Positions 1,539 to 12,388 of a stretch of DNA of 14,355 nt are shown piece after piece. The notes under the pieces were generated by a model, which ran no database searches, was not told where the DNA came from, and saw only the letters and a list, made by a program, of their open reading frames with translations. The position numbers and the translations under genes are program-made. The stretch's first letter is position 1. Each line of letters starts with the position of its first letter. The stretch comes from Desulfobacterales bacterium (lineage in GTDB: Bacteria; Desulfobacterota; Desulfobacteria; Desulfobacterales; Desulfobacteraceae). The DNA lies in assembly GCA_022361535.1 (NCBI GenBank), contig JAKSAU010000852.1, positions 1 to 14,355 of the forward strand, given 5' to 3'.

Positions 1539-1940
1539 ATGAAACGATTTGGTAACACCAAAACCGGTTATGTGGGCCAGAAAAAACACCACAACCTTTT
1601 CAGAATGCGACTTCACTTGATGATTATAATGGTCAAGGCCAAACTGGAAGGGTATCCTGTCGGCAGCTACAGAAAACAAGCTGTACTCAATATCGCTTCC
1701 GAGCTGCACAAAGATGTTTCTCAAATGGATATACGTATCAGCAGATCTAATACATCCAATCACTTGTTCAAAGAACGCGTAAAACTGCTCAGTGTCATGG
1801 CAACTGCCATGATTTCTGAAGATTACCCTTTGGGCATCCACAGACGTGAAGCCGTGTTAAACAATATTGATAGTATTATTGCTACCGCCTTTCCCTCTCA
1901 GGACTTTTCTGCGTACCACAAAATACTGAAAGCTGCCTAA
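1539..1940 (+). CDS. Hypothetical protein with two tandem related repeats
   Basis: I do not recognise the family. The frame is open from an ATG at 1476, but that codon has no ribosome binding site. The ATG at 1539 is preceded by AGGA about 7 nt upstream, so I chose it (133 residues, MKRFGNTKTG...). The protein is basic and has no signal peptide or clear membrane span. Its main feature is an internal duplication of about 32 residues: a hydrophobic helix, then YPVGSYRKQAVLN in copy 1 and YPLGIHRREAVLN in copy 2, each followed by another hydrophobic helix. The copies are separated by about 30 polar residues. The Y-P-[VL]-G-x-x-R-[KR]-x-A-V-L-N consensus suggests a small helical unit that may dimerise or bind a ligand. 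The response regulator follows 18 nt after the stop, so the two are probably co-transcribed. Confidence 0.65.
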   Translation: MKRFGNTKTGYVGQKKHHNLFRMRLHLMIIMVKAKLEGYPVGSYRKQAVLNIASELHKDVSQMDIRISRSNTSNHLFKERVKLLSVMATAMISEDYPLGIHRREAVLNNIDSIIATAFPSQDFSAYHKILKAA

Positions 1941-3830: not shown

Positions 3831-4801
3831 TACCAATTCGGGACAATCAGGTATCCCAGTCCAAACCGATCGTAACCTATAGTATAGTTGGAATAACCAG
3901 CCTAGTTTTTATTTGGCAGCTCGGCATGGGCCTTGGAAATGAAGCCGTCTTTTACGTTTACGGTTTTGTTCCTGGTAAATATACACTCCACGAATTATCT
4001 AAGTACTTTTCCCTAACCAACAAATTATTTACACCATTGTCTTACATGTTCTTGCATGGCGGATTTTGGCATTTTATTGGTAATATGTGGTTTTTATACA
4101 TTTTCGGGGATAATATTGAAGCCAACCTTGGTTCGTTTAGATTTGCAGTCTTTTATCTTTTATGTGGATTCCTTTCAGCATTGTTTCATTTTATGCTTAA
4201 CTACAATTCTCCCATACCGACCATTGGTGCAAGCGGTGCAATTGCCGGTGTAATGGGGGCATATTTTCTGCTTTACCCGGGAAACAAAATTTTGACCTTA
4301 ATTCCTATATTGATTTTTCCTGTATTTATAAGGATTCCTGCTTTTGTTTTTTTAGGGATATGGTTTATTTTACAATTTCTAAATGCGACCGGACAAAATA
4401 CAGGATCAAGTATCGCATGGTGGGCACATGTAGGCGGTTTTATATGTGGGCTGATGCTTGTTTCCTTTAATAAAAAACTGCCGCGCACGGGAACACGTGA
4501 AAAGATATACAAGTTTACTGAAAAAAAGCACAGCCCAAAACTTCAGGTTATCACGCCAACATCAAAAGATTTCGGACCCGACCTATACGGAACCATTGAA
4601 TTAACCACCCTTGAGGCATTGAGCGGAGCACGAAAAATGGTAACCATTCCATGGGGATTCAAAAAACCGATTTATAGGGTAAATGTTCCTCCTGGCGTCA
4701 AACGCGGCGCCCATTTAAGGCTTAAAGGAATGGGTAAAAATATGCCTGGCCAGGCGCGTGGGGATCTCTTTTTAAAGGTTGAAATCAGGAATGCCATTTA
4801 A
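3827..4801 (+). CDS. Rhomboid intramembrane serine protease fused to a DnaJ C-terminal-like domain
   Basis: Residues 1-215 form a rhomboid protease: about six membrane helices, HGGFWHFIGN (H82 and N86 region, oxyanion site), GASGAIAG with catalytic S136, and AHVGGF with catalytic H201. Both members of the Ser-His dyad are present, so the enzyme should be active and cleave transmembrane substrates within the inner membrane. After a basic linker (216-250), residues 251-320 match the C-terminal substrate-binding region of DnaJ/CbpA proteins: DLYGTIELTTLEALSGA, then YRVNVPPGVKRGAHLRLKGM and ARGDLFLKVEI. There is no J domain and no zinc finger. Because rhomboids usually end in the cytosol after an even number of helices, the added domain is probably cytosolic, but topology is inference. 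Translation starts at GTG, 4-nt overlap with the preceding gene, with AAGGA 7 nt upstream. Confidence 0.88.
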   Translation: MIPIRDNQVSQSKPIVTYSIVGITSLVFIWQLGMGLGNEAVFYVYGFVPGKYTLHELSKYFSLTNKLFTPLSYMFLHGGFWHFIGNMWFLYIFGDNIEANLGSFRFAVFYLLCGFLSALFHFMLNYNSPIPTIGASGAIAGVMGAYFLLYPGNKILTLIPILIFPVFIRIPAFVFLGIWFILQFLNATGQNTGSSIAWWAHVGGFICGLMLVSFNKKLPRTGTREKIYKFTEKKHSPKLQVITPTSKDFGPDLYGTIELTTLEALSGARKMVTIPWGFKKPIYRVNVPPGVKRGAHLRLKGMGKNMPGQARGDLFLKVEIRNAI

Positions 4802-7673
4802 AACAATCATACAATACCTAACTTTAACCGGGTTAATCCTGATTGTCTGTATTCAGGCTGCTTTCATCAGCCTGCCGCTCATAGCTGATGCCCTTATAAA
4901 ACAGAAGTTTGGAAAAGAGCTAAATGAATTTCAACTCGACTTTACCACAAATAATATTGGATTTTCACGCACCCTGGTCCGAGATCTTTCTTTTGGAAAA
5001 GATTTGAAAGCGGATACAGTAGAGTTGGTATATACCATTAAAAATTTCAATTCGTTTCAACTTGAAAAAATCACAGTTTCAGGGCTGTCTTCAAAGGTAT
5101 ACTTGCTGGAAGGACAAAAAATTAAGTTTAATTCTTTTGTCTTTCCAACAAAAGAAAACAAAAATAATAAAAAGAACCATTCAATTTCTAAATTGGATCT
5201 TAAAAAAATCACTGCTTTCTTACCAAGGCAAATCAGGATAAAAAACAGTCAGATAAAGGCACTGCATAAATCAACAGATTTTTTGATTCCTATTGACCTT
5301 ATGGCAGTGATTGACCCCGAAGAACAAAAAGCAGATGTTAAAGTCAGTTTAAAACCCAACGGGCAGAATATAAACATTGGTATTTCTGGAGATTTTATTG
5401 ATAAATCTTTGGCATTCAAGGCAATGGGGCAGCAAATTCAGCCAGACTGTATTATTCCTAAAATACCAATTGTTCCTGGCAATATCCGTTTTTCAGGTCC
5501 TCTTGATTTTAAGATAGAATCAGATGATTTAAAAGAATGGAGAATAAACGCATCCGGTATAAACATTGATCATCCACAAAGTCCTAAAGCAACCCTTAAA
5601 CAAATCAGCGGGTTGTTAAGTATTGGTAGTGAAACTTTTGATATCCTTTTTAGATCAAATGGAATCATCAAACTAAGCGGTCCAGGATTGTCTATTCCTG
5701 ATTTTTCTTTCACCATGGATTCTACATTAAACAAGGAGACCTCACCCAAGTTCAATCTTTCTTTAAAGAATTTGGAAGATGGCTGGACCCTTAAAGGTGA
5801 ACAAGTAGATTGGCTACCTGCTCTTAAAAAGTTATCCGAAGATTTATCTATCTTAAATTCTGAATTAAACTTGAGCTTGTCTGGTGATCTTGAAGACCAG
5901 ACCTGTAAATTAGATATAAGTTCTGAATCGATAATCAATAAGATCAATACCGAAATTGTAAAAACAGGGCCTGTTCAATTGAATACGGAGTTTAAAGGCA
6001 ATCTATTTAAACCAAATAAAGATAATTCCATTTCCTTTAAATCAAAGTTTGGAGAACTCAATTGGACATCAGGTTCCAATACGATTGGACTTAAAAATTT
6101 GCATGGAAAAGGAAATCTTAAGTTACACTTCCCTAAACAGTTAAAGCAAAACGATAGAGTTCATTTTCTTGGCGGAAATGTCGAAATCACAAGCTCCTCT
6201 CTCTTTCTTCAAACTGGATCTGATACCGCTAAAATTCCAAATATTTCTTTCAAAGCCAAAGTTAAGCAGTCTGCAAACCCATCCGGCCTTTCTTTAGGTA
6301 TAGACGGGTCATTCAGCCAAGCTGAATTCAATCATAAACAAGCAAATGGAACCGTGCAAAAAGGTGGTATTTCCGGAATTATTTCTTTTTCACCCGACTA
6401 TACTCAAAAAGCAGTGCTTAAAACCAGATTGGGTAACATGGATGTTACCTTAATAAAGCATCCAATTAGCATAAAAGGACTTTCACTTGAGCTACCGATG
6501 ACTTACCCGTTTAAACCCAATACTTCCCAAGGAACGTTTTTGGTAAAACATACGTCATACGCTCAAAAGGCTAAGGCATCACTTTCCGGTACCATAAACC
6601 AGACAGCTGACATAGCTTTTAATACAACAGGCCGCATTGATAATACCCATATTCCAGGATTATATGCAGACTTTAACATAGATGCCGGTTTGGATCTAAA
6701 ACAAGTCCCATGGGCTGATGCAATGATTAAAACCAATCAGTTCCTTTTAACTCAGGAGGAACTATTACGTATTGTTCCCACAACAGATATACCTGGAAAT
6801 TTTCAAATTGATCTTTCAACTCAAGCAAAAATCCTATACCAAGACCATCAACTCAACACATCTGCAATTGTAAACATCCACGACGGTAGTATCGATTTTC
6901 CGGGGCTTGATTTGACGGCATTAGGAATAACCGGAAATATTTCATTCAACAATCTTGAAAAACTTGAAAGTGTTCCCGGACAATTAGTGTCAATAAAATC
7001 CATTGATGCCGGCCAATTTAAATTTGATAACGCGGACATACGATTCAGTATCGAGGATGGGAAATCCCTAAACATAGAAAATTTGAAGTTGAATTGGTGC
7101 AACGGTTTAGTCTCAACCGAATCAATAAGACTTCCTGCTCCTGATAACCGTTTATCCCTTACTTTATATTGTGACCGCCTTGAAATGGATAGTTTATTAA
7201 GACAAATTGGTGCGTTTGATGCCAGGGGAGGGGGAACACTTAATGGTAGAATTCCCGTACTTTACAGGGATGGAGACATATCATTTGATGATGGGTTTTT
7301 ATTTTCAACACCAGGGCAGGGCGGCAGGGTCTTTGTAAAAGATTTAGATAGAATGCTTGAAGGCTTTCCTAAAGATACCCCCGAATTCTCACAACTTGAT
7401 TTGGCTGGAGAGGCACTAAAAGATTTTCAATATGAATGGGCAAAGTTAAAAATGAATACACAAGGAGACACATTGGCCGTCCATATGGAACTGGACGGAA
7501 AACCTGCTGCTGTACTACCTTTTGAATATAATAAAAAGCTCAACTCTTTTGTGCGGGTGGATGCCAAAAGTCCTGGGTCAAAGTTCCAGGGCGTCAAGCT
7601 TGACGTGAACTTGAAACTTCCCTTTAATCGCGTCATGAAATTTGGTAATAAACTTAAAAATATTATGGATTAA
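4791..7673 (+). CDS. ydbH: YdbH-like AsmA-superfamily intermembrane lipid-bridge protein
   Basis: This is a 960-residue protein with one N-terminal membrane helix (about residues 8-32), no cleavable signal, and a long periplasmic region rich in alternating beta strands, typical of AsmA/TamB-like repeating beta-groove proteins. The C-terminal 150 residues carry the YdbH signature (the domain labelled dicarboxylate transport, Pfam 11739): RGGGTLNGRIPVLYRDG, DDGFLFSTPGQGGRVFV and a late amphipathic FQGVKLDVNLKLPF. In E. coli, YdbH in the inner membrane joins the outer-membrane lipoprotein YnbE to form a bridge that supports phospholipid transport, redundantly with TamB and YhdP. Both partners follow directly here, which strengthens the call; the dicarboxylate label is not supported. 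I chose the ATG at 4791 over the upstream TTG at 4779. It overlaps the rhomboid gene by 11 nt, indicating translational coupling. Confidence 0.85.
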   Translation: MPFKTIIQYLTLTGLILIVCIQAAFISLPLIADALIKQKFGKELNEFQLDFTTNNIGFSRTLVRDLSFGKDLKADTVELVYTIKNFNSFQLEKITVSGLSSKVYLLEGQKIKFNSFVFPTKENKNNKKNHSISKLDLKKITAFLPRQIRIKNSQIKALHKSTDFLIPIDLMAVIDPEEQKADVKVSLKPNGQNINIGISGDFIDKSLAFKAMGQQIQPDCIIPKIPIVPGNIRFSGPLDFKIESDDLKEWRINASGINIDHPQSPKATLKQISGLLSIGSETFDILFRSNGIIKLSGPGLSIPDFSFTMDSTLNKETSPKFNLSLKNLEDGWTLKGEQVDWLPALKKLSEDLSILNSELNLSLSGDLEDQTCKLDISSESIINKINTEIVKTGPVQLNTEFKGNLFKPNKDNSISFKSKFGELNWTSGSNTIGLKNLHGKGNLKLHFPKQLKQNDRVHFLGGNVEITSSSLFLQTGSDTAKIPNISFKAKVKQSANPSGLSLGIDGSFSQAEFNHKQANGTVQKGGISGIISFSPDYTQKAVLKTRLGNMDVTLIKHPISIKGLSLELPMTYPFKPNTSQGTFLVKHTSYAQKAKASLSGTINQTADIAFNTTGRIDNTHIPGLYADFNIDAGLDLKQVPWADAMIKTNQFLLTQEELLRIVPTTDIPGNFQIDLSTQAKILYQDHQLNTSAIVNIHDGSIDFPGLDLTALGITGNISFNNLEKLESVPGQLVSIKSIDAGQFKFDNADIRFSIEDGKSLNIENLKLNWCNGLVSTESIRLPAPDNRLSLTLYCDRLEMDSLLRQIGAFDARGGGTLNGRIPVLYRDGDISFDDGFLFSTPGQGGRVFVKDLDRMLEGFPKDTPEFSQLDLAGEALKDFQYEWAKLKMNTQGDTLAVHMELDGKPAAVLPFEYNKKLNSFVRVDAKSPGSKFQGVKLDVNLKLPFNRVMKFGNKLKNIMD

Positions 7674-7689
7674 ACCTAAAGGAGATATT

Positions 7690-7902
7690 ATGGCCAAACA
7701 CTGGTGTTCCATTTTTATCTGTCTTTTTTTTCTAGCCTCAACCGGGTGTAGTACCAGTCATGAAGTGGAAGTCAAACCCGTTGAAATCAAGCCGATTCAC
7801 ATTACAATTGATGTAAATGTTAAAGTTGATAAGGCCTTGGATGATTTCTTCGGTGACATTGATGCGGCTGAGGACCAACTTGAAGAAGGGGAGGTGGAAT
7901 AA
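7690..7902 (+). CDS. ynbE: YnbE-like outer-membrane lipoprotein
   Basis: A 70-residue lipoprotein. A short basic start (MAKHW), a hydrophobic stretch and the lipobox LASTGC predict signal peptidase II cleavage and lipidation of C20. The mature part contains KPIHITIDVNVKVD, matching the conserved PITINxNVKI core of YnbE, which pairs by beta-strand addition with the C terminus of YdbH. An acidic tail (DIDAAEDQLEEGEVE) replaces the end seen in E. coli. The residue after the lipid-modified Cys is Ser, not Asp, consistent with outer-membrane sorting. The true start is the ATG at 7690, preceded by a perfect AAAGGAG with a 5-nt spacer; a longer frame from 7642 has no such site. The gene lies 16 nt after ydbH and overlaps the next gene by 1 nt. 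Confidence 0.88.
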   Translation: MAKHWCSIFICLFFLASTGCSTSHEVEVKPVEIKPIHITIDVNVKVDKALDDFFGDIDAAEDQLEEGEVE

Positions 7903-8267
7903 TGACTAAGTCCGGAAAAATCATTTTATTTTTGGTTGCTGTATTCTTTGTTTTTACAGGAATAACTTGGGCCGGTGGAATAAAGGAACGAATGAAGGCA
8001 CGACTGCCAGTCATTCATGACTTAAAAACCAATGGAATAGTTGGTGAAACCAATACCGGTTACCTTGGATTTGTTACCGCTAAGAAAGCAAAAGCCGATG
8101 TTGTTGCAGCAGAAAACAAAGATCGAAAAGCAATATACAAGCACATTGCTAAACAGCAAAATGTTTCCTTGGAACTTGTCCAGAAACGCAGAGCCAAAGC
8201 GCTTGCAGATCGGGCAAAACCAGGACATTTTTATCAGAATGACTCAGGAGTGTGGGTAAAAAAATAA
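7902..8267 (+). CDS. ydbL: YdbL-like DUF1318 periplasmic protein
   Basis: A 121-residue protein with an N-terminal signal peptide ending TWA-GG (cleavage near residue 24). The mature domain is DUF1318: IKERMKARLPVIHDLKTNG, VGETNTGYLGF, AAENKDRKAIYKHIAKQ, then RRAKALADRAKPGHFY and GVWVKK, all in the family order. YdbL is encoded with YdbH and YnbE across proteobacteria and appears to modulate their assembly in the periplasm. The start overlaps the ynbE stop (TAATG) and is preceded by GGAGG with a 7-nt spacer. Nothing is truncated. This is the last gene of the run; a strong terminator lies about 95 nt downstream, beyond a separate candidate promoter. Confidence 0.9.
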   Translation: MTKSGKIILFLVAVFFVFTGITWAGGIKERMKARLPVIHDLKTNGIVGETNTGYLGFVTAKKAKADVVAAENKDRKAIYKHIAKQQNVSLELVQKRRAKALADRAKPGHFYQNDSGVWVKK

Positions 8268-8273
8268 AATCTG

Positions 8274-8302
8274 TTGACACGTACTTTATCAGAATGTAAA
8301 TA
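8274..8302 (+). promoter_or_regulatory. Candidate promoter of the nickel transport operon
   Basis: A perfect -35 TTGACA (8274-8279) is followed by a degenerate TAAATA (8297-8302) after 17 nt. It lies immediately downstream of the ydbL stop and is the only promoter-like sequence before nikK. Between the terminator (ending 8412) and nikK only 26 nt remain, too little for another promoter. I find no obvious NikR palindrome here. Confidence 0.45.
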
Positions 8303-8377
8303 AACTTCAAACGTGGACAGAAGTCCGCACTTGCAGTTCAAAATACATATACAAAATCACCAACCACGAAGGTTGAA
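8303..8377 (+). promoter_or_regulatory. Structured leader with possible antiterminator segment
   Basis: Positions 8303-8318 pair with 8323-8338 to give an imperfect hairpin with an AGAA tetraloop, a 2x2 internal loop and one mismatch. Within it, TTCAA (8306-8310) and CGTGG (8312-8316) are also complementary to TTGAA (8373-8377) and CCACG (8364-8368), which belong to the terminator's 5' side. The two pairings are mutually exclusive, the layout expected for an attenuator or riboswitch. It does not match a riboswitch class that I can recognise. Confidence 0.4.
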
Positions 8378-8412
8378 AAGACTTAAGTCTTTTTCCTTCG
8401 TGGTTTTTTTTT
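8362..8412 (+). terminator. Strong intrinsic terminator in the nik leader
   Basis: AACCACGAAGG (8362-8372) pairs perfectly with CCTTCGTGGTT (8395-8405), enclosing the nearly perfect inner palindrome AAAAGACTTAAGTCTTTT (8376-8393). A run of nine T residues (8404-8412) follows. It can end transcription from the ydb operon, and it also sits between the candidate nik promoter and nikK. Confidence 0.93.
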
Positions 8413-8438
8413 GATGAACGCCTAAAATGGAGTTTAAA

Positions 8439-9227
8439 ATGAAATCTAAATCTTATCTGCTTTCTGTTGTGTTGTTGGCTGTTGCTTTTCTACTCTTTAA
8501 TTCTTCCTATTGCCTGGCCCATTTTGGAATGGTAATTCCATCGGACAACATGGTTTCTCAGGATGAGCCCCGCACCGTTAAATTGACCCTGTCCTTTTCT
8601 CATCCTTTTGAGGGAATTGGTATGGAGCTTGTCAAACCTGAAAATTTTTCTGTCGTTAAAGATGGCAAAGCTATTGATAATACAAGCCTGCTGAAACCGG
8701 AGAAAGTTATGGCCCACCCCGGATGGTCAATGGACTACAAAATTAAACGACCAGGTGCATATACATTTGTTATGACACCTCAACCTTACTGGGAACCTGC
8801 TGAAGACTGTTACATAGTCCACTACACTAAAACCGTTGTAGCTGCTTTTGGTGACGACAGTGGTTGGGATAATGAATTAGGCCTTAAAACAGAAATAGTT
8901 CCTCTTACCAAGCCTTTGGGTTTGTATTCAGGAAATCTGTTCCAGGGTATTGTCAAACTGAATGGAAAACCAGTACCTTATGCTGAAGTAGAAGTTGAGT
9001 ATTACAACGAGGAAAATAAGGTTCAGGCACCATCTGAAGACATGATTACCCAAACTGTAAAAGCTGACAGCAACGGTGTTTTTTCATACACAGTTCCGGC
9101 TCCTGGCTGGTGGGGATTCGCAGGTTTAAACACTTCGGATAAAAAAATGGTGTACAAAGGAGAAGAAAAGGATATAGAGTTGGGCGCAGTCATTTGGGTT
9201 AAATTTGAAGAATGGCAGGAAAAATAA
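8439..9227 (+). CDS. nikK: NikK, DUF4198-type exported subunit of nickel ECF transporter
   Basis: A 262-residue DUF4198-family protein. A signal peptide (KSK, then a hydrophobic core, ending YCLA) predicts cleavage before H28, so the mature protein would begin HFGM. Two beta-rich regions follow: residues 45-150 and a carboxypeptidase-regulatory-like beta sandwich at about 160-262 (LNGKPVPYAEVEVEYY, DSNGVFSYTVPAPGWWGFA). In nickel-type ECF transporters, NikK and NikL replace the small CbiN subunit of cobalt systems and are thought to help NikM capture Ni2+ at the outer face of the membrane. The start at 8439 is chosen because GGAG (8429-8432) sits 6 nt before it; the in-frame ATG at 8427 lacks a ribosome binding site. 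nikM begins 4 nt after the stop. Confidence 0.82.
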   Translation: MKSKSYLLSVVLLAVAFLLFNSSYCLAHFGMVIPSDNMVSQDEPRTVKLTLSFSHPFEGIGMELVKPENFSVVKDGKAIDNTSLLKPEKVMAHPGWSMDYKIKRPGAYTFVMTPQPYWEPAEDCYIVHYTKTVVAAFGDDSGWDNELGLKTEIVPLTKPLGLYSGNLFQGIVKLNGKPVPYAEVEVEYYNEENKVQAPSEDMITQTVKADSNGVFSYTVPAPGWWGFAGLNTSDKKMVYKGEEKDIELGAVIWVKFEEWQEK

Positions 9228-9231
9228 ACCA

Positions 9232-9837
9232 ATGCATATTTCCGAAGGAGTATTGTCCGGTCCGGTGTTGGGCGCTGGTGCAGCAGTTACATTAGGGTTT
9301 ACAACGCTGGGGCTTAAAAAAATTTCCTATGATCAGATGGTCCATGTGGCCATCCTGGCCTCGGCATTTTTTGTCGCCTCACTAATACACGTTAACATCG
9401 GTCCGGTCAGTGTCCATCTTATTTTAAACGGAGTTTTAGGGCTGCTGCTTGGTGTAGCAGCCTTTCCGGCCATACTGACTGCTTTAGTTCTTCAGTCTTT
9501 GTTTTTTCAATACGGCGGCCTTACGGCTTTAGGGGTAAACTGCCTGATTATGGCGGTCCCTGCTGTTACAGTTCACTATCTTTTTTTTCCCATGCTCGGC
9601 AAATCAAAAACAATGACTTTCACAGCCGGAATGCTTTCTGGGGTATTCTCCATACTCGGTTCCAGTTTTTTGCTTGGTGGGGCATTATGGTTTACCGACG
9701 AGCAATTTTTAAAAACCAGTATGGCAATTGTAGCCGGTCATGTCCCGGTAATGATTATTGAAGGCATTGTTACAGGATTCTGTCTTTCATTTCTGGTTAA
9801 AGTCTACCCGGAAATACTTCCCAAAAAAATACAATGA
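9232..9837 (+). CDS. nikM: NikM, substrate-specific (S) membrane subunit of nickel ECF transporter
   Basis: A 201-residue CbiM/NikM-family protein with about six membrane helices. It starts at the conserved MHISEGVLSGPVL; in this family the N-terminal amino group and His2 directly bind the metal inside the protein. Further candidate ligands are H53 and H62 in HVNIGPVSVHLILNG, the family's core signature. An upstream TTG at 9205 would bury this N terminus and can be rejected on functional grounds. The ATG at 9232 has AGGA 11 nt upstream. Nickel rather than cobalt is inferred from the neighbouring nikK and nikL and from the absence of cbiN; NikM and CbiM are not safely separated by sequence alone. 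The stop overlaps the nikL start (ATGA). Confidence 0.88.
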   Translation: MHISEGVLSGPVLGAGAAVTLGFTTLGLKKISYDQMVHVAILASAFFVASLIHVNIGPVSVHLILNGVLGLLLGVAAFPAILTALVLQSLFFQYGGLTALGVNCLIMAVPAVTVHYLFFPMLGKSKTMTFTAGMLSGVFSILGSSFLLGGALWFTDEQFLKTSMAIVAGHVPVMIIEGIVTGFCLSFLVKVYPEILPKKIQ

Positions 9838-10319
9838 AAAAAATATTACAGATCTCTATCTTTTTATTAGCCTTTGTTATCCTTATTCGACCATGTTTTG
9901 CACATAAGGTGGTCCTGTTCGGATGGGTTGAAAATAATACCGTACATATTGAGGCTGGGTTTGGCAGCAACAGGCCTGCTATGGATTGCAGTTTAAAGGC
10001 ATTTGACCAATCCAACACCATTATTTTTCAAGGAAGAACTGACAAAAATGGAAAATTTACATTTCAAGTGCCTGAGTTATGGTCAGGTGATATGAGGCTT
10101 GAGATCGAAGCTGGCCCAGGACATAAAGGAACCTGGACCATACTTGCATCTGAGTTTGCAGCACCCGAAGCAACTGGCAGGACAGACGAGATCTCTGAAA
10201 AGTATTCTGCTATGAATAAAAGCCCAAGTGGTGTTAAAATTTTTTTTGGTATTCTTCTGATATTTACTCTGGCTATTGGTATCAGGCAGATTAAAAAGAA
10301 AAAGGCTGACCGGACATGA
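9834..10319 (+). CDS. nikL: NikL, accessory exported/membrane-anchored subunit of nickel ECF transporter
   Basis: A 161-residue protein with a signal peptide ending PCFA, predicted to leave a mature N terminus HKVVLFGW. A small beta-sandwich domain follows (about residues 24-110, with DKNGKFTFQVPELWSGDMRLE, similar to the second half of NikK). Then come a linker and one C-terminal membrane helix (about 133-152) with the basic end IKKKKADRT. This architecture, a periplasmic domain anchored by a C-terminal helix, is that of NikL. It should sit beside NikM and support Ni2+ loading. No convincing Shine-Dalgarno precedes the ATG, so translation probably depends on coupling through the 4-nt overlap with nikM. 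It overlaps nikQ by 4 nt in the same way. Confidence 0.78.
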   Translation: MKKILQISIFLLAFVILIRPCFAHKVVLFGWVENNTVHIEAGFGSNRPAMDCSLKAFDQSNTIIFQGRTDKNGKFTFQVPELWSGDMRLEIEAGPGHKGTWTILASEFAAPEATGRTDEISEKYSAMNKSPSGVKIFFGILLIFTLAIGIRQIKKKKADRT

Positions 10320-11819: not shown

Positions 11820-12248
11820 TTAATATCCGCCTTCCATTAAATCGTTTAATTCTTTTTGGATGCAGAAATATATATCTTCATCACTTCCGTAAACGTCAAT
11901 GACATCTTTGTGGTCAATAAGGGTTTCAACCACAAAGGCTGTGAGGTATAGGCTTGCGATGTTAGGGTTGGACACAAGGGTTCTAAAGGGCGCAACCGCA
12001 TAGTCAATATCAAAATCTTCTGCTCTGCACATAGTATCAAGGCAGCGTACAATCTGGTTTTCAATGCTTGATTTGCTTACGGTTTCAATGAGCCCGGTTT
12101 CAATAAGTTTCATAGAAACTTTGTTGCTGAATAAATCAATGTTATCCCGGATTGTGCTAATAGTCTTAATTCTCTCCCGCTCCTTTGAAGATTCAATTTT
12201 AGAGAGGAGTTTGGATTCCCTGTTACCGGTGTAAAACATCTTTGCCAT
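11820..12248 (-). CDS. Hypothetical protein, 142 residues
   Basis: I do not recognise this family. The start at 12248 (MAKMFYTGNRESK) is chosen because AAGGA lies 7 nt upstream; an in-frame ATG at 12269 would place that site inside the gene. The protein is soluble, helical and slightly acidic, with no signal peptide or membrane helix. A charged helix of about residues 12-45 (SKLLSKIESSKERERIKTIS) could form a short coiled coil. The middle contains two cysteines (VRCLDTMCRAED) eight residues after an SSIENQ segment, and the C terminus ends YGSDEDIYFCIQKELNDLMEGGY. It lies 140 nt downstream of recJ on the same strand. It may have its own promoter: TAATAT (12295-12300, minus strand) is near a weak TTGAAA. 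Confidence 0.75.
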   Translation of the reverse strand: MAKMFYTGNRESKLLSKIESSKERERIKTISTIRDNIDLFSNKVSMKLIETGLIETVSKSSIENQIVRCLDTMCRAEDFDIDYAVAPFRTLVSNPNIASLYLTAFVVETLIDHKDVIDVYGSDEDIYFCIQKELNDLMEGGY

Positions 12249-12388
12249 GGATTTATCCTTAAATAACAAAATCGTTAAAAGCTAATCTCTAGTTATATTA
12301 CAGATCTTGTCCTTTTTTCAAGCAAAATCCAGGCCTTTGATAAAAAAACACCTGTCTTGCATCATATCAATTTAAGGACTTGATAAGC

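Follow-up and report, generated by a model that had tools for sequence, protein, structure and literature searches.

A conserved twin-hairpin leader before nickel and cobalt uptake genes of Desulfobacterales, a candidate transcription-antitermination switch

The described systems closest to the leader analysed here are the RNA targets of ANTAR proteins, the guanidine-II (mini-ykkC) RNAs, the HMP-PP (thiS) riboswitch, the NiCo (czcD) riboswitch, which is a four-way junction, and the nickel operons regulated by NikR. The loops of guanidine-II RNAs are of the type ACGR. According to excerpts of PMC8934654 and PMC3369931, ANTAR targets consist of two hairpins, the second of which lies inside a terminator, and transcription terminates unless a protein holds the hairpins. 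Excerpts of PMC7266159 describe guanidine-II RNAs as mainly two identical stem-loops and the NiCo riboswitch as one that switches exporters on, and in the HMP-PP riboswitch a recognition element likewise overlaps the terminator (excerpt of PMC6478431). NikR regulates nik(K)M(L)QO operons in delta-proteobacteria (excerpt of PMC545781), and the NikKMLQO operon type is known from these and other bacteria (excerpts of PMC545781 and PMC2667541).

The window, which is the whole 14,355-nt stretch of DNA that was analysed, contains such an operon on the forward strand. Behind a single leader lie a nikK-like gene (DUF4198, PF10670; 8439-9227, with its ATG at 8439), nikM/cbiM (PF01891; 9232-9837), nikL (9834-10319; no Pfam match, and 88.4 bits to NF058648, below the cut-off of 100), nikQ/cbiQ (PF02361; 10316-11074) and the ATPase gene nikO/cbiO (PF00005; 11074-11796). 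The named proteins of the closest relatives belong to Desulfobacter sp. and other Desulfobacteraceae. The region directly 5' of the leader (4779-8267) contains YdbH-like, small lipoprotein-like and DUF1318 (YdbL) genes, with ydbL ending at 8267; the YdbH-like and DUF1318 families are found in 15 and 14 of 81 nikK loci, respectively. Two additional ORFs, labelled by eye, are receiver-domain-like (1986-2327) and HD-domain-like (2324-2887).

The leader begins with a -35-like TTGACA (8274-8279), followed at a spacer of 17 nt by TAAATA (8297-8302), a weak match to a -10 element, and transcription probably starts near 8308-8310. Hairpin P1 (8313-8328) has the stem GTGGAC/GTCCGC and the loop AGAA (8319-8322). 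A linker that is A/T-rich and variable in length and sequence (8329-8360) joins P1 to hairpin P2 (8361-8375; CAACC-ACGAA-GGTTG, with CCACGAAGG at 8364-8372), a putative antiterminator that is exclusive with the intrinsic terminator hairpin (8362-8405; 5' arm 8362-8372, 3' arm 8395-8405). The apical hairpin of the terminator, P3 (8375-8394), has the loop TTAA. An earlier note on this DNA had read the leader as attenuator-like, with its own promoter, and the features on which this was based are plainly present in the sequence: a 44-nt hairpin of 11 bp plus 8 bp, nine T residues (8404-8412), and a distance of 26 nt between the T tract and the nikK ATG, within which a Shine-Dalgarno-like GGAG is found (8429-8432). 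As in an attenuator leader, the terminator hairpin and T tract (8362-8412) lie between the promoter and the start codon, and P2 is an exclusive alternative that shares with the terminator the CC and the base preceding it (with one covarying P2 pair).

The promoter analysis and the analysis of runs in the 5+5-bp pairing used 62 leaders (61 loci and the window; L055 was left out), of which 57 were analysed after the omission of five that do not contain the CCANGAAGG motif. In 53 of these 57 nikK leaders, TTGAC is present within 60 nt 5' of the P1 model start, compared with 5% in mononucleotide shuffles, in agreement with a promoter belonging to the leader itself. Over the 62 leaders, the motif occurs 58 times, 57 times at 35-45 nt and once at 29 nt before the P1 model start. 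Therefore, this conserved promoter-like spacing suggests that the RNA probably begins with P1 or a short way 5' of it. Neither TTGACA nor TAAATA is in the list produced by a simple promoter scan of the window, and a -10-like hexamer at a spacer of 16-18 nt was found in only 9 of the 57 leaders under a narrow rule.

To collect relatives, one-per-species genomes were scanned with the nikK family, and the best 80 of 555 relatives were kept as loci. Without any RNA search, the same layout is visible upstream in many of these best 80 of 555: an (N)NGAA-loop hairpin is separated by an A/T-rich stretch from NCCAYGAAGGN, after which come an inner hairpin, a GTGG arm and a T tract. Thirty-two nikK leaders, that of the window among them, went into a covariance model, R1; the conserved bases of R1 are partly imposed on later matches, and the score of the window itself is a product of this construction. 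At E <= 0.1, an element ending no more than 330 nt before nikK was found in 62 of the 80 protein-fetched loci (best 80 of 555) and in the window, which amounts to 31 nikK leaders beyond the 32 used for R1. Among the 18 loci without such a match, two (L045 and L078) include only a short upstream stretch, two (L039 and L065) carry the element before an upstream porin-like gene, two (L043 and L076) carry it before nikM, five (L019, L033, L042, L046 and L058) have weaker matches (E 0.12-0.56), and seven (L014, L049, L061, L066, L067, L072 and L075) have no element at E <= 1. Rfam scans of the window (E <= 5), 12 loci (gathering thresholds) and 5 short loci (E <= 5) gave no match for the element, the few sub-threshold matches looking like chance, and searches of plasmid and viral collections also gave no match. 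No report of the element was among the matches listed in a search of the open-access literature; the main text of PMC8632094 contains neither 'desulfo' nor 'nickel'.

The conservation of P1 and the terminator as predicted from these sequences is beyond chance. The RNA from 8303 to 8420 folds at -38.3 kcal/mol (z = -6.0), and none of 200 shuffles was as good. RNAalifold applied to the 32 leaders, the window included, predicted P1 and the terminator, with two-sided changes at 9 of 16 pairs. In alignment A3 (103 elements from 100 sources), which was fitted to a model holding P1 and the terminator and thus favours both, P1 exhibits changes on both sides at all six pairs, with 94.9% of cells paired, and in the terminator stem 7 of 10 pairs change on both sides. 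The earlier note had predicted a local hairpin at 8303-8338 and had named its lack of conservation and covariation in relatives as grounds for abandoning the proposal; both were found, and the strong core of the hairpin is 8313-8318 paired with 8323-8328. The P1 arms vary freely with compensation and the loop is fixed: NGAA or NNGAA is present in 163 of the 189 elements, among 192, in which P1 could be picked for this count, mostly with C-G closure. The linker between P1 and P2, counted in the 169 elements in which P1 was picked for that purpose, spans 26-91 nt with a median of 37 nt. P3 was considered as a third conserved GAA hairpin and was rejected, having an (N)NGAA loop in just 66 of 192 elements and no such loop in the window.

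As judged from these comparisons, the conserved alternative to the terminator is the small predicted hairpin P2, which arises from the 5' arm of the terminator itself. The strand CCAYGAAGG serves as this arm and can also fold on itself as NCC-ANGAA-GGN', with a loop that is a small copy of the P1 loop type, ANGAA closed by C-G. This loop is present in 192 of 192 elements, a figure imposed by the search motif, since 13 of 205 elements without the CCANGAAGG motif were left out. The base preceding CC, which is G or A, is under a double pairing constraint. In the 103 elements, it pairs with its P2 partner (pair 121-131) in 101 (GC 45, AU 44, GU 12, other 2) and with its terminator partner in all 103 (GC 47, AU 46, GU 10, other 0). 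Together, the three positions read ATT in 44 elements, GCC in 39, GTC in 8, GCT in 6, GTT in 4 and others in 2; A opposite C at the P2 partner was never seen among the 103. In a wider set of 192 elements, the base and its P2 partner are A/T in 91, G/C in 64, G/T in 31, A/C in 1 and others in 5. On a tree built without the tested columns, which rests on approximately 100 columns and has A-C inferred at two inner nodes, position 121 changes 18 times and position 131 changes 16 times; both change on the same branch in seven cases, and most of the remaining changes proceed via G-U. Moreover, each G in the GG of CCANGAAGG is kept in 101 of 103 elements although its terminator partner is unpaired in 13 and 14 rows, which points to a second role of this dinucleotide. 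These patterns support two mutually exclusive pairings, P2 and the terminator, of one strand.

Because the two CC-GG pairs (122-130 and 123-129) hardly vary, covariation in P2 is confined to a single pair, and in 44 of the 103 elements the outer pair (120-132) does not form. For P2 alone, which is outside the model to which A3 was fitted, the number of pairs with two-sided changes was reached by shuffles in 86 of 500 cases and the number of pair types in 371 of 500, whereas the number of cells paired, the number of cells changed and the covariation score all beat the 500 shuffles. P1 and P2 together have a covariation score of 0.646; shuffles score 0.214, and slid versions do not exceed 0.157.

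A different antiterminator had been proposed in the earlier note, in which 8306-8316 would open the terminator by forming 5+5 bp with its 5' side. The complementarity does exist in the letters of the window (8306-8310 with 8373-8377 and 8312-8316 with 8364-8368), but it is close to chance in the relatives. For the inner five pairs, a run of at least 5 bp with NCCANGAAGG was found in 4 of 57 leaders, and the mean run was 3.28 compared with 3.14 in shuffles. The duplex between the 5' segment and a 15-nt arm had a mean energy of -4.5 compared with -3.8 in shuffles, the relatives being 0.6 kcal/mol lower, and only 4 of 58 leaders, the window included, reached an energy as low as that of the window (-8.4). 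This pairing was therefore rejected as the conserved alternative.

Prefix folds of the window contain P1 and P2 when they end at 8375, 8380, 8385, 8390 or 8395, and those ending at 8400, 8405 and 8412 contain P1 and a growing or full terminator, P2 being gone. By calculation, P2 alone has an energy of -4.3 kcal/mol as a 5-bp stem and -1.7 as a 4-bp stem, and the terminator has -24.1. An unaided P2 should therefore lose to the terminator in this model, and the default outcome should be termination.

Nickel enzymes are central to sulfate reducers. At E <= 0.01, 274 of the 389 genomes searched in the order of Candidatus Desulfobacula maris, which we take to be Desulfobacterales, carry the element; the count is likely low, as 10 candidates per genome were scored with strict filters, and the chance expectation at this threshold is approximately 4 of 389, with E-values possibly off by approximately five-fold. 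In a phylum-wide draw, 56 of 297 genomes carried the element, and several copies per genome were present in the first ten genomes searched.

To describe the genes following the element, 127 elements were used from 148 rows after duplicate sites and most antisense palindrome rows had been dropped; they were the best-ranked rows by E-value, a choice that favours nikK, and class sizes were taken from BLAST clusters, with Pfam run on representatives of 20 of the 25 clusters. The next gene is nikK-like in 52 cases, nikM in 4, nikL in 1 and nikO in 1 (possibly any ABC ATPase). Other classes are TonB receptors (14), Peripla_BP_2 (8), porin-like proteins (6; 2 OprB and 4 by eye), FmdE (5), DUF3842 (4), methyltransferases (4), a repeat protein without a Pfam match (4), and FecCD, SBP_bac_5 (NikA-like), CbiM with PDGLE and DUF3450 (2 each). 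Fumarase accounts for two elements before one gene, and DUF4198, TrmO, a LuxR-type regulator and a permease (APC-like by eye) account for one each; four elements precede other genes, and for six no ORF was picked. Uptake functions, tallied as nik-like, TonB, Peripla_BP_2, porin-like, FecCD, SBP_bac_5, CbiM, DUF3450 and DUF4198, make up 95 of the 127, or 89 without DUF3450 and the porins assigned by eye. Some copies precede genes without a clear metal role, such as those for fumarase, the LuxR-type regulator and the permease. Twenty loci from the phylum draw contain 22 additional elements, many of which, as read by eye, also precede similar genes; for some this is not the case or no gene was picked.

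The distribution of NikR is far narrower. NikR_C was detected in just 9 of the 389 genomes; that is, most genomes of the order lack a NikR detectable by an NikR_C search, and the element (274 of 389) is a concrete and widespread candidate for the regulation of nickel uptake in this order. NikR was also considered as a strict alternative to the element and was rejected in that role. Six of the nine NikR genomes (G049, G297, G302, G324, G352 and G353) carry the element at E <= 0.01 and three (G051, G068 and G285) do not; therefore, the element and NikR are not mutually exclusive. NikR-regulated operons are of the same type as that of the window, but they are controlled by a DNA-binding repressor (excerpt of PMC545781), and no NikR box GTGTTAC-N13/14-GTAACAC with up to 3 mismatches is present near the promoter of the window. 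The N13 form has one match, at chance level, inside nikK (8807-8833), and the N14 form has none. No linked regulator gene was recognised among the families common to at least 7 of the 81 nikK loci.

On balance, we lean towards reading the leader as a twin-hairpin transcription-antitermination switch, in which a trans-acting factor would hold P1 and P2 during nickel or cobalt shortage. RNA polymerase would start just 5' of P1, and P1 would fold first, followed by the weak P2. If P2 were left unheld, the GG arm made later would pair with the CC strand of P2, the terminator would form, and the nickel importer would be off by default. When nickel (or cobalt) is short, the factor, for which an RNA-binding protein, either metal-free or activated, is the likeliest candidate, would recognise the like loops of P1 and P2, hold P2 and thereby block the terminator. 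Holding P2 would turn the operon on, and importers would be wanted in shortage, which therefore suggests the sign of the response. The role of P2 as the working antiterminator, the protein nature of the factor, the identity of the sensed metal and the sign of the response are all inferred, and the architecture and this importer logic would speak for a trans-acting antiterminator rather than a plain metal riboswitch. The presence of the same element before many metal-uptake genes suggests a regulon, and a P1-P2 RNA would be a simple bait for the sensor. A wider claim is that the element represents a new class of RNA sensor for nickel/cobalt status, in which two GAA-loop hairpins, one of them embedded in a terminator, control the nickel/cobalt uptake regulon of an order of sulfate reducers in which NikR is mostly missing, through either direct binding of a metal-related ligand or a new family of antiterminators that bind RNA and sense metal; we regard this claim as evenly poised.

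The twin loops of the same type on variable stems, the wide conservation and the recurrent nickel/cobalt uptake genes would also suit a protein-free riboswitch, in which P1 and P2 would dock via their GAA loops, bind Ni2+, Co2+ or a metal-related small molecule, and shift the balance between P2 and the terminator, much as the two-hairpin guanidine-II RNAs bind guanidine. These RNAs, as described in an excerpt of PMC7266159, demonstrate that so simple an RNA can bind a ligand. However, importers would be switched on by any ligand bound so as to hold P2, the opposite of what would be expected of the metal being imported, and the element has a small conserved core and a linker of varying length; we consider this explanation rather unlikely. 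The sensed signal might instead be a different one, such as molybdenum or tungsten, iron or a metallophore, with nickel uptake as one output among several. FecBCD-like transporters, TonB receptors, FmdE, TrmO and fumarase behind the element are indeed not nickel-specific, but NikK/NikM/NikL, CbiM with PDGLE and NikA-like proteins are its recurrent and specific members, which makes a different signal improbable.

Two simpler explanations dispense with sensing by the RNA. The terminator follows the ydbH-ynbE-ydbL operon on the same strand and could be a plain terminator of that operon, with unregulated read-through into nikK and an incidental P1. Yet the element stands before many other genes, the DUF1318 gene is present in just 14 of the 81 nikK loci, and both P1 and the promoter-like TTGAC are conserved, so that this explanation is very improbable. 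Both hairpins are also palindromic as DNA and could be operators bound by a repressor; the compensated variation of the P1 arms around a fixed loop, the absence of an NikR box near the promoter and the rarity of NikR_C in the order make this idea hardly credible.

The putative antitermination switch resembles the ANTAR-target leaders of EutV, NasR and AmiR in overall plan, with two like-looped small hairpins, the second in the terminator stem. According to the excerpts of PMC8934654 and PMC3369931, however, ANTAR loops are hexaloops with A1 and G4, a rule that the (N)NGAA loops of the element do not follow, and the eut linkers of Enterococcus faecalis are 5-12 nt long compared with 26-91 nt here. 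An ANTAR target was thus rejected on loop, linker and gene content; the element may work like an ANTAR leader without being one by these tests. The ANTAR domain PF03861 was found in 10 of 16 element-bearing genomes searched, with no match in G002, G003, G006, G007, G009 and G247, of which G003 is a complete chromosome record (that of L047) and several others are MAGs that may be incomplete. If our reading is true, twin-hairpin antitermination extends beyond ANTAR proteins. The NiCo riboswitch shares the nickel/cobalt connection with the element but, unlike it, switches exporters on (excerpt of PMC7266159), and it is not among the Rfam matches in the window, the 12 loci or the 5 short loci, in keeping with the dissimilarity remarked on in the earlier note. 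Guanidine-II RNAs, which share the twin small stem-loops described in the same excerpt and differ in their genes, are likewise not among the matches in these three Rfam scans. The HMP-PP riboswitch belongs to thiamin genes (excerpt of PMC6478431), and its sequences were set beside the element through the Rfam scans alone.

Several element-bearing loci have additional features. On a 52-kb contig of Eth-SRB2 (G009, contig C35; L111-L113), the element is present five times, with an additional weaker sixth copy. Genes for TonB receptors, an FmdE protein, a methyltransferase, an ABC ATPase and a LuxR-type regulator lie nearby, and the regulator gene itself stands behind a copy. In Desulfobacter vibrioformis (L090, 1501-1789), two tandem elements precede a fumarase gene (PF05681). 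DUF3842-like genes, for which we know of no function, stand repeatedly behind the element (L213, L208, L125, L117 and, by eye, L234). A porin-like outer-membrane gene, identified by eye in L022, L039, L065 and others, is present in 15 of the 81 nikK loci, in some of them (L039 and L065) with an element of its own, and is a candidate outer-membrane nickel channel. Locus L030 contains a selenocysteine tRNA within the nikK locus (1580-1669, minus strand). In the window, a 149-aa ORF on the minus strand without a Pfam match (11820-12269) recurs in 8 of the 81 nikK loci.
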